DNA of 64,000 nucleotides, taken from assembly GCA_958296015.1 (NCBI GenBank), contig CATQIH010000007.1:1-64000 (forward strand), in the 5' to 3' direction. Position 1 is the stretch's first letter, and every line of letters starts with the position of its first letter. Origin of the DNA: Cyclobacteriaceae bacterium (GTDB lineage Bacteria > Bacteroidota > Bacteroidia > Cytophagales > Cyclobacteriaceae). Below are positions 22,964-60,378 of the stretch, one piece after another. The notes beneath the pieces are model-generated. The model ran no database searches and was not told the origin of the DNA. It saw only the letters and a list, made by a program, of their open reading frames with translations. A program made the translations under genes and the position numbers.

Positions 22964-23102
22964 GATGCCGTTTGCTACCTCATCGTAGCGTGGCAGGCAT
23001 TGCATCGTGCAGACTTTCTATGCGTAAATTTGCCCAGGTGTGGCATGTTTCTTTGCTTGTCATGGCAATTTATATTCGCTACAATTTCAGTGGATGTCTG
23101 GC

Positions 23103-23322
23103 CTAGCTTATATATAGTGCTCTCCTAACCTATATGTGCTGCCTCTCTAACCTATGTACGTTGCTTGCCTAGCCTATACAGGCTGCTTCCCTAACCTATG
23201 CACGCTGCCTCTCTAACCTATACAGGCTGCTGCTCTAACCTATGCAGGTAGCTTGCTTAACCTTGAGCGGTAAGCCGTCTAACCTCAGCGGGATGCCTAT
23301 GCAACCTATGATGACCCTTTGA
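23103..23322. repeat. 22-bp tandem repeat, about ten imperfect units
   Basis: Ten consecutive units of exactly 22 bp start at 23103, 23125, 23147, 23169, 23191, 23213, 23235, 23257, 23279 and 23301. The conserved core is CTAACCTAT followed by a variable RCRSG and GCTGC. The outer units are most diverged. Units are contiguous with no spacers, so it is not CRISPR, and 22 is not a multiple of 3, so it is unlikely to be coding. Confidence 0.8.
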
Positions 23323-55242: not shown

Positions 55243-57579
55243 CTATTCATTCCCTACTACGTCTTTGCTTTTCTTGCCTTTCTTCTTTTGCATAGGATTT
55301 GGGCCGGAGGTGCCGCGGGCATCCATCTTTTCTTTGTAGATTTCAAAGCGGGTAGGCACATTTCTCTTTGGGAAGAAGTTGTTGCTTTCATCCGTATCTG
55401 CTGTTTCGCGGAAAGGGTCTATCTGGATCTGCTTCACTTTCTTCTCCTTGGCAAATACCTTGGTGGGGTTTTCAGCATTCAAACGCCATACTTCCGCCGG
55501 GATGCGCTCTACCTCTGTGCTGCCATCTTCAAACGTCCATTGCAGAATGATCGGCATGATCAGCCCGCCTACGTTGTTGAAAGTCACTTCATAGAAATTC
55601 ATACCTGATGCCAGCAGTTCCTTTTCTTTGTCATCCAATCCTTTCACAAAGTCCTGATACAAGGCAATGTCTTCGGGTTCTACGGCAAACGGATCATAGG
55701 TACTATAAAAATCTTCCAGACCCGGATCAGCTTCCACAGCGGTGGTGGCTACATCTTCTTTGTTGTACACCTGAGAGATATGCTTTTCAGCCTGCTCGTA
55801 GTTTTGCTTGGCGATCGGCTTTTCTACCTTTGGGTCGCCGGTATTGATCTGGAAATACCGCACCTGATCGATGCCGATGTCTACGTGGTCCACCGTGTAG
55901 AACCAGCCTCTCCAGTACCAGTCCAGGTCGGTGCCAGAAGCATCTTCCATCGTACGGAAGAAGTCGGCAGGCTCCGGATGCTTGAAGGCCCAGCGTTGCG
56001 CATAAGTTTTGAATGCCATATCAAACAGCTCGCGGCCCATCACCGTTTCGCGGAGTATGTTGAGCGCGGTGGCCGGCTTGGCATAGGCATTCCAGCCAAA
56101 TTTTTGTATCTGCTCGGAGTTGGTCATGATAGGACTGATGCCGGAAGGATCACCGGCCATATAGGGCACAATCTTGAAGGCCGGACCTCTGCGCGAGGGG
56201 AAATTACGGTCCCACTCCTGCTCGGTCAGGTATTGCACAAATGTATTCAGCCCTTCGTCCATCCACGTCCACTGACGCTCATCGGAGTTGACGATCATCG
56301 GGAAGAAGTTGTGGCCTACCTCGTGAATGATCACGCCGATCATACCGTTTTTAATTCTTTCGGAGTAGGTGCCGTCTTTGTTGGGCCTGCCATAGTTGAA
56401 GCAGATCATCGGATACTCCATACCGTTGGAAGCTTCTACGGAAATGGCTTTCGGATAAGGATAAGGAATGGTGTGTTTGGAATACGTCTTCAGCGTGTGC
56501 GCTACTACTTTGGTAGAGTATTGCCCCCACAGCGGATTGGCTTCTTTGGGATAATACGACATGGCCATCACCGTTTTTCCATCAATATCCACGCCCATCG
56601 CATCCCAGACGTATTTGCGGGAGCTACCAAAAGCAAAATCCCGCACACTGTCGGCATGGTAGATCCAGGTTTTGGTATCTTTGGCCTTTTTCTTTTCTTT
56701 ACCGGTGGCTTCCTGTTGGCTTACAATTACCACAGGCTCTTTGGCTGTTTTAGACTTTTCCAGCAAGTTTTGCTGCTCTTGCGTCAGCACATCTTTTGGG
56801 TTTTGCAGCAGCCCCGTAGCCGCCACCAGATGATCGGCAGGGGCAGTGATTTCCACCTCATAATCACCAAAGGTAAGGGCAAACTCGCCGCTGCCTAAGA
56901 ACTGCTTGTGCTCCCATCCCTGATGATCGTTGTAGACGGCCATTCGCGGAAACCACTGGGTGATGGTATACAGGTAGTTACCGTCTTCCGGAAAATATTC
57001 ATAGCCACCACGGCCACCCATCAGGTTGCGGTCGTTGATATTATAATACCAGTCGATAGAAAAGGTAAGCTGCTTGCCTGGTTCCAGGGGTTTGGGAATA
57101 TCTATCCGCATCATCGTGTGGTTGATGGTGTAGGGTATATCCTTGCCATTTGCGTCTTTGATAGACTTGATCTTATGCCCTCCATCAAAATCGTACCCGA
57201 TAAGCGCCTGAATGTTATCGATATTCATGCTATCGGAGATGCTGTTGGTTCGCGTCTTGTACGTGTCAGAATCTTTGGCCCGCATGTTCTGGTCGAGCTG
57301 CACCCAGAGGTATTGCAGCGGGTCGGGGGAATTGTTGTAATAGGTAATGGTCTCTGAACCGTCCAGCCGCTGCGTTTCATCGTTGAGCGTGCATTTGATC
57401 TTGTAATCTGCGCGTTGCTGCCAGTATTCGTGGCCGGGCGCACCCGAACCGGCACGGTATACGTTAGGTGTAGGCAACATAGTGCCCAGTTGCTCAAACT
57501 TTTCGGTGTGTTTTCCTTCCTGTGCCTGCACTGAGAAAGCAGCGAAAGTTAGGCATAACAGACAAATAAAATACTTCAT
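55243..57579 (-). CDS. M1-family zinc metallopeptidase (aminopeptidase N-like)
   Basis: This 778-aa secreted enzyme has a signal peptide (FICLLCLTFAAFSVQAQ), an N-terminal beta domain (KCTLNDETQRLDGSETITYYN-type opening) and a thermolysin-like domain with HEVGHNFFP near 415 and MDEGLNTF about 22 residues later, which supply the zinc ligands. The substrate-contact GAMEN motif reads GMEYP (ASNGMEYPMICF). A lysine-rich tail ends the protein. It likely trims peptides in the periplasm or at the surface. No T9SS domain is present. Confidence 0.9.
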   Translation of the reverse strand: MKYFICLLCLTFAAFSVQAQEGKHTEKFEQLGTMLPTPNVYRAGSGAPGHEYWQQRADYKIKCTLNDETQRLDGSETITYYNNSPDPLQYLWVQLDQNMRAKDSDTYKTRTNSISDSMNIDNIQALIGYDFDGGHKIKSIKDANGKDIPYTINHTMMRIDIPKPLEPGKQLTFSIDWYYNINDRNLMGGRGGYEYFPEDGNYLYTITQWFPRMAVYNDHQGWEHKQFLGSGEFALTFGDYEVEITAPADHLVAATGLLQNPKDVLTQEQQNLLEKSKTAKEPVVIVSQQEATGKEKKKAKDTKTWIYHADSVRDFAFGSSRKYVWDAMGVDIDGKTVMAMSYYPKEANPLWGQYSTKVVAHTLKTYSKHTIPYPYPKAISVEASNGMEYPMICFNYGRPNKDGTYSERIKNGMIGVIIHEVGHNFFPMIVNSDERQWTWMDEGLNTFVQYLTEQEWDRNFPSRRGPAFKIVPYMAGDPSGISPIMTNSEQIQKFGWNAYAKPATALNILRETVMGRELFDMAFKTYAQRWAFKHPEPADFFRTMEDASGTDLDWYWRGWFYTVDHVDIGIDQVRYFQINTGDPKVEKPIAKQNYEQAEKHISQVYNKEDVATTAVEADPGLEDFYSTYDPFAVEPEDIALYQDFVKGLDDKEKELLASGMNFYEVTFNNVGGLIMPIILQWTFEDGSTEVERIPAEVWRLNAENPTKVFAKEKKVKQIQIDPFRETADTDESNNFFPKRNVPTRFEIYKEKMDARGTSGPNPMQKKKGKKSKDVVGNE

Positions 57580-57666
57580 AGGATAGACAGTTGATAAAGA
57601 GTTATTAACAATAAAAGAACGTCAATTGAAAGACTTATCCAAATTTTTTATAAGTAATAGAGGATA

Positions 57667-58248
57667 TTACCAAAACTTTGTATCCAACATCAGCATAAAA
57701 GCGATACCGGCAATGGCAGAAGATACCACCAGCCGCCAATCTCTGCGCTGTACGCCAAATATACCAATAAAAATGTAAGATATGACCAGAAATACGGCAA
57801 CAATGACGATCTGCCCTAGTTCCAAACCTACGTTAAAAGCAAATAGTTGCGTGACAATGCTTTCGTCTTTGCCCAGCAGGCTGCGCAGGTAGTTAGAAAA
57901 GCCCAGGCCGTGTATCAGTCCGAAGAACAGCGCAAAAACATAGTTGAGCTGTATCTTGTTGGGATCAAACCGGTCTTTCTTCAGTATATTGCTCAGGGCC
58001 GTGACAAAGATCGTTACCGGAATCAGAAACTCAATCAATGCCGGGTTAACATTGACAATACGCAGCGTAGAGAGTGCCAGCGTGATGGAGTGGCCGATCG
58101 TAAAGGCCGTCACGATGATCAGCACCTTGCGCCAGTCGCGGGGCAGGTACAAAGCACACAAAGCAACAACAAACAGGATGTGATCGTACCCATTGATGTC
58201 TAGGATATGGGTGAGTCCCAGATCAAAGTAGAGCGAAAAAGTAGACAT
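57667..58248 (-). CDS. HupE/UreJ-family membrane protein
   Basis: This 193-aa protein has six to seven helices. It opens FSLYFDLGLTHILDINGYDHILFVVALCALY (key element DHILFVVAL), then TAFTIGHSITLALSTL and FGLIHGLGFSNYL, ending with LMLDTKFW. The His and Asp residues in DHILF and GHSITL are typical of HupE/UreJ, thought to move nickel or other divalent metals. No urease or hydrogenase gene is nearby, so the substrate is open. Confidence 0.85.
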   Translation of the reverse strand: MSTFSLYFDLGLTHILDINGYDHILFVVALCALYLPRDWRKVLIIVTAFTIGHSITLALSTLRIVNVNPALIEFLIPVTIFVTALSNILKKDRFDPNKIQLNYVFALFFGLIHGLGFSNYLRSLLGKDESIVTQLFAFNVGLELGQIVIVAVFLVISYIFIGIFGVQRRDWRLVVSSAIAGIAFMLMLDTKFW

Positions 58249-58318
58249 AACACACTGATCATAAAATGATTGCCAAAAGTATTGAATTTTTTGAGAATAC
58301 TGTTATCTTATGGAGGTT

Positions 58319-58427
58319 GGAAGTCGGAAGATGGAAGATGGAAGATGGAAGTTGGGAGACGGAAGACGGAAGATGGAAGCCTCTTTTCCTCGGACTCCGG
58401 TCTTCGGACTTCGGTCTTCCGGTTTCC
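58319..58427. repeat. Heptanucleotide minisatellite with inverted half
   Basis: 58319-58379 holds eight to nine units GGAAGAT or variants (GGAAGTC, GGAAGTT, GGGAGAC, GGAAGAC). After CCTCTTTTC comes the complementary-type run CGGACTC, CGGTCTT, CGGACTT, CGGTCTT, CCGG to 58427. One strand is purine-rich then pyrimidine-rich, so it can form a long imperfect hairpin. Non-coding, just upstream of the protease-like gene. Confidence 0.8.
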
Positions 58428-58474
58428 CATAAACAAAACGGTGTATGTGTGACTTTACCTGTTGTTATCGGGTA

Positions 58475-59707
58475 ATGCGGTTGATGATCAGTATTACCTG
58501 TCTTTTGTTGAGTTGTGATGTGATGGTGTGTGCACAGCAGCAGGGCTTTGCCCTGGAAAATCCCAAAGCCAAAAGGGTCGTTATCCCGTTTGAGCTGCAC
58601 AGCAACCTGATCGTGGTGCCCGTCAGGGTCAACGACGGGGTAGACCTTAAGTTTATCCTCGACACCGGTGTGCGCAATAGTATCCTCACCAATCCTATGT
58701 ATGTAGAAGGGCTGCCTGCTGCCAACGATCGGCTGATCAACCTGATGGGTGCCGGTAACTTCGGGCAGATCAGTGCCTATGTGAGCACCAATATCAATAT
58801 TGATCTGCCAGGCGTAACGGCAAATGGCAACGCCATGCTGATCCTCAAAGAAGATTACCTGATGCTGGAAAACTACCTGGGCACCCGCGTACATGGCATT
58901 CTGGGCTATGAGATTTTCAGCCGGTTTGTGGTGGAGATAGATTACGTCAGCAACCTGCTCATCTTGCATAAGCCGGAGCATTTCCGTCCCCGCAGGTCTT
59001 ATATGGCTATTCCCCTTACCATAGAAGATACCAAGCCCTACATCACCGTGCCTTACAAGGTGGATGATACCACCTCTATCAATCTCAAACTTATGGTAGA
59101 TACCGGTGCAAGCCACTCGCTGCTGCTGAACGCATTCAGTCACCCGGCTCTCCAGGTACCGGAGAAGCATATTGGAGGTTATTTAGGCCGCGGACTCAGC
59201 GGAGAGATTTATGGATATATGGGCAGGGTGCAGGAGATAGACCTGGGCAAATACACCATCAAAGATATCATCGCCTCCTTTCCCGAACACAATGAAGCAG
59301 TGACAGAAGCGGCGGCCAAAGTAAGCAGCAACGGCAACATAGGCGGCGCACTACTCAAACGCTTCAAGGTTATATTCGACTATGGCCGTGGCATGGTCTA
59401 CCTCAAAAAGAACCGCTCGTTCCGAGATCACTTCGAGTACAATATGAGTGGCATCGATCTGATTGCCGTCGGGCCATTACTTGAGACGTATGTCGTAGGC
59501 AAAATCTCCAAAAACGCCGTGGCAGAGCAGGCAGGCATCCGCGAAGGCGACATTGTATTGTCTGTCAACGGCATGGCTTTTCCGGAGCTTACTCTTAGTA
59601 ATTTTAGCGGTATGATGAGTTCCAGGCCCGGTAAAAAGATCAAAATACGCCTGCTACGCAACGACCGTATACTCAAGAGAGTCTTCCGGCTGGAGCGGGT
59701 ATTGTAG
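58475..59707 (+). CDS. Retropepsin-like aspartyl protease with PDZ domain
   Basis: Start ATG 58475 (MRLMISITCLLLSCDVMVCAQ), 410 aa with a signal peptide; the frame extends ten residues further up. Two retropepsin-like aspartyl domains are visible, with active-site motifs FILDTGVRNSIL near 66 and LMVDTGASHSLL near 208. A flap-like GYLGRGLSGEI follows the second. A PDZ domain covers about 315-405 (VVGKISKNAVAEQAGIREGDIVLSVNG). The two-DTG plus PDZ layout is common in secreted Bacteroidota proteins. Substrate unknown. Confidence 0.85.
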   Translation: MRLMISITCLLLSCDVMVCAQQQGFALENPKAKRVVIPFELHSNLIVVPVRVNDGVDLKFILDTGVRNSILTNPMYVEGLPAANDRLINLMGAGNFGQISAYVSTNINIDLPGVTANGNAMLILKEDYLMLENYLGTRVHGILGYEIFSRFVVEIDYVSNLLILHKPEHFRPRRSYMAIPLTIEDTKPYITVPYKVDDTTSINLKLMVDTGASHSLLLNAFSHPALQVPEKHIGGYLGRGLSGEIYGYMGRVQEIDLGKYTIKDIIASFPEHNEAVTEAAAKVSSNGNIGGALLKRFKVIFDYGRGMVYLKKNRSFRDHFEYNMSGIDLIAVGPLLETYVVGKISKNAVAEQAGIREGDIVLSVNGMAFPELTLSNFSGMMSSRPGKKIKIRLLRNDRILKRVFRLERVL

Positions 59708-59976
59708 ATAACTTTTTGCAGCTTTTTTGTTATGCAAATGCATTTTTGTTAAAGAAATGTTATTATTTATTACTCATAATAACTTACGAGTTGTAAAAAT
59801 GTCATTTTTGTTATTAAGAAAGTGTTCTTAATCGATAAAAACATCTTTGCATAACATATCTACGCTTCTTAGTTATGCAAATGTCGTTTTGTTAACCCAG
59901 AACTCTGTTAAGTTATGCAAAAGTCATTTGCATAACGTATCTTCTCTTCTTAGTTATGCAAATGTTATTTTTATTA
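59708..59976. repeat. Cluster of six GTTATGCAAA motifs in alternating orientation
   Basis: The 10-bp word GTTATGCAAA occurs at 59729, 59872, 59912 and 59953, and as its complement TTTGCATAAC at 59846 and 59927. Adjacent opposite copies make perfect inverted repeats: 59846-59881 and 59927-59962 (each with a 16-nt spacer that is itself related) and 59912-59936 (5-nt loop). Variant words ATGTCATTTTTGTTA lie between. The region is otherwise AT-rich and gene-free. Confidence 0.8.
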
Positions 59977-60378
59977 CTAAAAATCAACAACATACGTAAT
60001 ATAAATCTCCTGACTGGTGTGCCAATTGCTGCGAACATAGAAATGGTCTTTTGATATATCAACATCAAAGTCCGCATCTTCATAATACAAATTCCGGTAG
60101 CCAAAAATGTACTGATCAGCAGCATTATAGAAAGCTACTGAATCTGTAAAAAATATACCATTGTTACCAATAAAATAATCCTGACCTTTAATGATAGTTC
60201 CTTCATTAATAACTTCCCCACTCTTGTAAAGAGCAAACTTTATATCCCCATACGTCTGGTTTAAAATGTAGTATCTATACTTTGGCGAAATCGCGTTGTC
60301 AACCACTTGTTCACAAGACAAAAGGCAAAGCAACAAACAGCAAATGGTGAGATGCTCATAATAATGCAATAAACGCAT
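59977..60378 (-). CDS. Small lipoprotein of unknown function
   Basis: This 133-aa protein has a lipoprotein signal (LTICCLLLCLLSC) and a beta-rich mature part (YRYYILNQTYGDIKFALYKSG, YFIGNNGIFFTDSVAFYN, YIFGYRNLYYEDADF). No family recognised. Aromatic-rich, low GC. Lies alone next to the GTTATGCAAA cluster. Confidence 0.6.
   Translation of the reverse strand: MRLLHYYEHLTICCLLLCLLSCEQVVDNAISPKYRYYILNQTYGDIKFALYKSGEVINEGTIIKGQDYFIGNNGIFFTDSVAFYNAADQYIFGYRNLYYEDADFDVDISKDHFYVRSNWHTSQEIYITYVVDF

Follow-up and report, generated by a model that had tools for sequence, protein, structure and literature searches.

The heptanucleotide tract of the window (the whole stretch of 64,000 nucleotides that was analysed) belongs to a dispersed family of heptamer arrays, which mostly point outward from the neighboring genes, have edges at stop codons and frequently occur in inverted pairs, while the two arms of a pair are not matched to each other. 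The explanation which we consider best, with about even confidence, is a degenerate heptamer satellite of spacer DNA, with gene boundaries setting or filtering the direction in which it reads. The hairpin would then mostly represent a by-product.

The window is part of a genome of 5.9 Mb (G000), which was compared among others with a sister genome (G001). Around the tract, the following features are present:

57667 to 58248, minus strand: hupE/ureJ-like gene (PF13795, Pfam), the start of which faces the R arm at 61 bp
58274 to 58281, minus strand: promoter-like TACTTTTG before hupE, found as a match to TAnnTTTG; the array starts 28 bp upstream
58310 to 58379, plus strand (G-rich strand): purine-rich heptamer array (R arm), nine units of the GGAAGAT, GGAAGAC or GGAAGTT type, from sequence reading, TRF and unit profile
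58380 to 58386, no strand: junction between the arms, CTCTTTT, from sequence reading
58387 to 58427, minus strand (G-rich strand): complementary heptamer array (Y arm on the plus strand), five units of the CGAAGAC or CGAAGTC type, from sequence reading, TRF and unit profile
58475 to 59707, plus strand: aspartyl protease with PDZ domain (PF13650, PF17820, Pfam), the start at 58475 being judged likely and the N-terminus resembling a signal peptide

The original prediction described tandem GGAAGAT-type units that switch to their complement, and direct reading as well as TRF confirmed this. For the R arm, TRF reports a period of 7 with 10.0 copies and 82% matches (58310-58379), and on the Y side complementary rows of period 7 and 14 at 58390-58419 and 58396-58427. 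The tract is indeed located at 58319-58427 as proposed, but the first degenerate units were missed, since the R arm begins at 58310. The phase of seven, which had been described as kept on both sides, holds within each arm (GAAG cores at 58320+7k; CTTC cores at 58402, 58409, and 58416), and the registers of the two arms are offset by 5. The two arms are built from different variants of the unit, GGAAGAT in the R arm and CGAAGAC in the Y arm, and within each arm the units are locally alike (0.82 and 0.75), which is an exception within G000.

That the tract can fold on itself holds for RNA as well as for DNA. As RNA it reaches -47 kcal/mol with a z-score of -1.82 against dinucleotide shuffles (8 of 200 equally good), and as DNA a z-score of -1.06 (31 of 200). 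Since the RNA value is only -1.82, much of the folding energy is due to base composition. A purine-pyrimidine triplex of the H-DNA type, which was suggested as well, is very unlikely, since every unit contains one or two pyrimidines and the longest purine run within the tract is 6; the longest pyrimidine run is 12. An Rfam scan of window positions 57000-60000 yielded two matches to mir-H1 with 28.3 and 25.3 bits at a cut-off of 97, and hence no family.

The tract sits in a divergent spacer of 226 bp between hupE and the aspartyl protease gene (the Pfam scan covered three window proteins). For the latter, the longest open reading frame would start at 58445 and the gene caller chose 58523; with the start at 58475, the end of the Y arm lies 47 bp upstream. 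TACTTTTG fits the -7 box TAnnTTTG of Bacteroidota, and at its position the sister genome G001 carries TATTTTTG. The divergent gene pair is kept in G001 and in G013. G001 can be aligned with G000 at both sides of the spacer, whereas the middle is array in G000 and an unrelated, array-free spacer in G001. Since the whole spacer is no longer than that of the sister (226 bp compared to 243 bp), an insertion is not evident at this locus.

Within G000, the repeat of the window is no chance product: a strict pattern of three units, RGAAGWYSGRAGWYSGRAG, has 28 matches at about 15 places in the whole 5.9 Mb, and the backward control has none. A unit profile with a score threshold of 18 was used to scan a sample of 1.264 Mb of this genome (144 kb of C7, in which the window lies, 400 kb each of C13 and C20, and 320 kb of C32), with genes called by a hexamer model of our own trained on long open reading frames. 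The controls were the sister genome and shuffles, because backward sequence is unsuitable here, GAAG reversed being again GAAG. This revealed 52 arrays, of which 43 are spread over 25 intergenic spacers and 9 fall within called genes; 400 kb of G001 contained two arrays that reached score 18 and none that reached 20.

A search for tracts of period 7, which had been proposed as a check, gave an excess in spacer DNA. TRF found 8 tracts of period 7 and 25 of period 14 in 222 kb of G000 spacer, although some of these 33 consist of other units, among them ATTCAAC and several 14-mers. Shuffled spacer gave none of either period, and 964 kb of coding DNA gave no tract of period 7 and 4 of period 14. 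For the spacers of G002, 9 and 12 tracts of the two periods compare with 0 and 2, for G028 0 and 6 with 0 and 0, and for G001 0 and 2 with 0 and 0. Taking all G000 spacers together, base identity does not peak at lag 7 (0.277, compared to 0.278 at lag 6 and 0.275 at lag 8), so that the period is confined to a minority of spacers. Spacers with arrays do not exceed the remaining ones in length (median 149 bp compared to 167 bp).

The distribution over genomes is patchy. Of 59 genomes, 8 including G000 contain the strict pattern, with 51 matches in G002 and none in G014 or G001, and the only other genome of the genus among the 59 lacks it. The genes flanking the arrays, for which translations were read at 10 loci (ppx/ppk, sucD, fabI, pgi, and tsaD among them), appear ordinary, and phase variation of these genes was dropped as an explanation. 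A REP or REPIN element mobilised by a RAYT was rejected likewise, since blocks of several units are common to loci no more often than by chance. Furthermore, the number of RAYT genes does not track the arrays (15 in G000, 28 in G014 without strict matches, 3 in G002 with its 51), and no array scoring above 17 was present within 3 kb of the three matches to PF01797, out of 15, that were examined.

The arrays obey a rule of polarity. For each array, the gap between the 5' end of its G-rich strand and the gene on that side was compared with the gap at the opposite end. In G000, 38 of the 43 intergenic arrays point outward from the nearer gene (the 9 inside called genes being excluded), as do 8 of 10 in G028 and 9 of 11 in G002 (2 inside genes excluded). 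A scan of named genomes found at least 119 stretches in several phyla. Among the 80 loci listed from it, 45 of 54 arrays are outward (of 112 in total, 32 inside open reading frames and 26 at locus edges were excluded), with 20 of 23 in Bacteroidota and 25 of 31 in other phyla, as grouped by record title. Unpaired arrays alone follow the same rule, with 12 of 13 intergenic ones in G000 and 32 of 40 among the named loci listed.

The order of the arms is equally biased. Among the 25 array spacers of G000, 14 carry R followed by Y, 7 only R and 4 only Y, and the order YR does not occur. The clusters at the 80 named loci listed comprise 63 single ones (38 R and 25 Y), 20 RY and one YR. Across 395 genomes of Bacteroidota, the RY order, searched as GAAGNNNGAAG-gap-CTTCNNNCTTC, has 88 matches in 43 genomes and the backward YR control 26 in 23 genomes, where overlapping matches are counted apart and some RY matches outside G000 are other hairpins; G000 itself contributes 12 versus 0, and the remaining Bacteroidota 76 versus 26. 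The occurrence of 14 paired spacers among these 25 indicates that a class of elements with a centred strand switch exists in G000, as anticipated.

Given the outward polarity, the strand switch of a tract can be understood as the point where two arrays meet, each reading away from its own gene. It had been argued that adjacent tandem inserts fail to account for the strand switch. They could, as single arrays obey the same polarity. Nevertheless, R and Y arms share a spacer in 14 cases, while about 0.4 would be expected if they were distributed independently (21 and 18 of 866 spacers). The arms are thus not unrelated inserts, and given this number the pairing itself may matter.

The position of the arrays is tied to gene boundaries. 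For G000 arrays with a stop codon on the 5' side, the median distance is 0 nt and 19 of 26 lie within -7 to +4, whereas the 18 arrays at starts have a median distance of 81 nt and a minimum of 16. Several stop codons are fused with the first unit, e.g., TAG-AAG, and TAG is the stop codon of 10 of the 24 gene ends abutting an array, compared to 268 of 1111 called genes.

For the preferred reading, these observations can be arranged as follows. The arrays would be a satellite that colonises spacers. It would occupy DNA without another recognised role, reaching the stop codon on one side and ending before the promoter region on the other, and a stop such as TAG-AAG may act as the first unit. Orientation would be set or filtered at the gene boundaries, since repeats of GAAG or GGAG would resemble a Shine-Dalgarno sequence before start codons. 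Arrays at both ends of a spacer would then meet head to head, which would produce the apparent flip into the complement, and the hairpin would largely result from the orientation rule. In addition, something acting on each unit would have to keep three positions fixed. One finding speaks against a simple satellite, as the local likeness of units to be expected is missing in G000 when the window locus is left aside.

Alternatively, the paired arrays may have been selected as RNA hairpins behind the stop codon, working as bidirectional transcript ends without a U-tract or as protectors of the 3' end. We consider this somewhat unlikely, but, together with a binding site for each heptamer (see below), it is one of the two rivals that should be taken seriously. 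Bidirectional intrinsic terminators form a stem-loop after the stop codon and are often present between convergent genes. A stem-loop near the stop would be common to the arrays and these terminators, of which 54 ordinary ones were scored, and convergent spacers make up 8 of the 25 with arrays compared to 124 of 866 overall. Also the order of the arms would fit, since it is purine-first in all 14 paired spacers of G000. Having the purine arm first would be favorable for such a function, as the 3' arm then leaves a weak hybrid of pyrimidine-RNA and purine-DNA.

Other observations speak against it. Of the 29 gene ends that carry an array, 14 score as strong hairpins, compared to 160 of 743 other ends, but among these 14 the array supplies both arms in only 6 and a single arm in 2 more, so that array-borne hairpins (8 of 29) show no clear excess. 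A U-tract after the stem is seen at one of the 29 array ends, where it belongs to a separate ordinary hairpin beside the array, compared to 54 of the 743 others, so that a canonical intrinsic terminator is not supported. In contrast to such terminators, the stems consist of imperfect heptamers, single arms are common and keep the same polarity, and the copy in the window lies between two divergent genes. Furthermore, the arms of a pair are not matched beyond the shared motif.

The ppx/ppk spacer gives evidence for both sides. In G000 it comprises 114 bp, nearly all of it array. Of 30 loci surveyed, 11 had a ppk match, 8 of these being convergent. In the six convergent relatives apart from G000 and G001 the spacer has 0 to 82 bp, and three of the six carry ordinary hairpins by reading, as the selection of RNA hairpins would predict. 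However, the G001 spacer has only 21 bp and is without a strong hairpin. For Xanthomonas, RNA-seq has been reported to show more transcript starts and stops at quadruplex-capable heptamers than at control repeats, which would support a role at transcript ends, although, in the available text, the authors found no role in gene regulation (PMC4692102).

A different view is opened by the units themselves, for which about 2.4 Mb from four genomes and a set of short loci were analysed. Their consensus is V-G-R-A-G-W-Y. Over 283 units, position 2 is G in 93%, position 4 is A in 93% and position 5 is G in 86%, while positions 1, 3, 6, and 7 are variable, for the most part within V, R, W, and Y. If arrays had grown recently by slippage, neighboring units should be alike. 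Comparing the variable positions, neighbors in G000 without the window locus agree to 0.444 and units of other arrays to 0.447 (p 0.28; 41 arrays, 148 units); with the window locus included, p is 0.04. In G028 there is no local likeness either (0.433 compared to 0.488 for other arrays; 9 arrays), whereas it is present in G002 (0.691 compared to 0.594; 10 arrays, 27 units). For the named-locus arrays listed, where all positions were compared, neighbors reach 0.889 and others 0.716, which demonstrates that the test detects slippage where it exists. The detection of arrays partly favors the fixed positions, a bias which is equal within and between arrays.

Neighbors that are not alike, together with three positions that are about 90% fixed, argue for a constraint on each unit in G000 (window locus aside) and G028 rather than for recent slippage. 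Neutral decay would be expected to erode the fixed positions and ongoing slippage to leave likeness between neighbors, which again would leave constraint. The missing likeness makes the slippage account testable, and the likeness it predicts is absent in two of the three genomes examined.

Such a constraint could be exerted by a trans-acting factor of a kind so far not recognised, with a register of seven bases and common to several phyla, which writes or polices the arrays unit by unit. This reading is unlikely; the arrays would then be a genome-wide mark of gene boundaries and not a microsatellite. The units resemble independent draws from one degenerate code, start at the stop and point outward, as would be expected of a boundary mark.

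Closely related is the possibility that the heptamer is a binding site, so that a protein or RNA with a footprint of seven bases keeps G2, A4, and G5 while positions 1, 3, 6, and 7 drift, which appears distinctly unlikely. The contrast between fixed and mixed positions and the lack of local likeness in G000 without the window locus are in line with it, as are the independence of positions 1 and 3 (p 0.87) and the finding that blocks common to loci are as rare as by chance (two-unit blocks 18 compared to 16.7 expected, three-unit blocks 1 compared to 0.5). On the contrary, the units of G002 are locally alike, and none of the candidate readers of the motif that were considered is clearly supported. 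GGA is the core of the CsrA site, but it is present in only 60% of the units. Cold-shock proteins, for which a consensus d(GTCTTTG/C) is given in the accessible part of the report (PMC7825780), fit somewhat better than chance, with 6 or 7 of 7 positions matched by 21 of 162 Y units compared to 237 of 3240 shuffles. The domain counts run in the opposite direction, with one match in G000 and 5 in G001, from which the strict pattern is absent, so that there is no clear support for cold-shock proteins as readers.

It had further been proposed that slippage through a hairpin could account for the switch; one arm would then have been copied from the other by fold-back or hairpin-templated slippage. 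The co-occurrence of R and Y arms far above independence would agree with this, and a few pairs match very well (for example ppx/ppk and C32:150869). However, in 22 pairs (15 from fetched contigs and 7 from further loci), own arms were no better matched than swapped ones, neither in complementarity (12.91 compared to 12.95, p 0.51) nor in duplex energy (-29.10 compared to -29.13). The pairing of the arms hence follows from the shared motif alone. As the arms in the window are moreover of different variants, copying of this kind is highly improbable. A common motif at the centre of the pairs was rejected as well, since by eye TTCTTTTACTCC-like sequences are present at few junctions and absent from most of the 22 pairs.

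Heptameric repeats of this kind are already known from the plant-pathogenic bacteria of the genus Xanthomonas. As far as the accessible text of PMC4692102 goes, GGGAATC and GGGGA(C/T)T repeats of Xanthomonas and Nostoc are intergenic and of degenerate unit, and two genomes of Xanthomonas carry 70 and 75 inverted pairs of them in head-to-head arrangement. Most of them lie within 50 bp, on the coding strand if downstream of a stop and on the non-coding strand if upstream of a start, with the 5' neighbor nearer (28 compared to 160 nt); adjoining genes belong to all functional classes, and divergent spacers are under-represented. Measured against this account, the G000 arrays likewise have a tandem seven-base intergenic unit with fixed and variable positions at many loci, are arranged in head-to-head pairs (in 14 of the 25 array spacers sampled) and are placed at stops and starts. 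They differ from it in the unit V-G-R-A-G-W-Y, which is without regular G3 or G4 tracts, and in the phylum.

A G-quadruplex element, as discussed for the GGGAATC repeats, would share unit length, polarity and inverted pairs with the arrays described here, but its probability is close to negligible, since GG is usual, a single G frequent (CGAAG) and G3 only occasional rather than one per unit. Since the polarity rule holds in several phyla for a unit without G3 tracts, quadruplexes are not needed for it.

A second group comprises the TAACTGA heptamers of Beggiatoaceae, Cyanobacteria and some Bacteroidetes, which, according to the part of PMC4679880 available, are like the G000 arrays intergenic and patchy over phyla. 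In contrast to these arrays, they have one near-invariant unit, occur in 169 direct sets and one indirect set, and are mostly present just upstream of starts. Heptamers are a favored repeat length in many bacterial genomes, for which polymerase slippage has been proposed in the accessible text of both papers (PMC4679880, PMC4692102). The slippage signature is absent in G000 (window locus aside) and G028 and present in G002 and the named loci listed. For long simple sequence repeats of prokaryotes, seven is reportedly the commonest unit length in many genomes according to Mrazek and co-workers. Arrays of the GGAAGAC type in Bacteroidota were not described among the open-licence literature matches listed.

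Several other repeats were noticed. In the window, degenerate copies of a unit of 22-44 bp (CTCTCTAACCTATACAGGCTGC) occupy positions 23102-23263, where no gene was called. On the same contig beyond the window, C7:111500-111605 (in L358) holds seven copies of the 14-mer CCGGTCTGGAAGAC, in which a Y-type and an R-type heptamer alternate; a tRNA-Arg gene immediately precedes this array, and a hairpin with a T run follows it. Rows of period 14 outnumber those of period 7 in G000 spacers. At C13:203433-203743, a single spacer contains two adjacent 14-mer arrays, AGCGGCCACCGTGG with 9.5 and GACTACGTGTCCCG with 7 copies, and at least two other spacers of G000 contain a third 14-mer, AATGCCCAGCATGG. 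Other heptamers were seen in relatives, at G034 C22:499600-500200 (L041, L046, L051) and G002 C22:240804, namely TATCAAC/CTATCAA and GAGGGAC beside GGAAGAC units, as well as arrays of AAGAACC/AAGAATC. Finally, the Y1 transposase family PF01797 has 15 matches in G000 compared to 2 in the other genome of the genus, and five of them have an identical score (C2:105930, C2:133961, C2:164421, C11:64994, and C29:115256).
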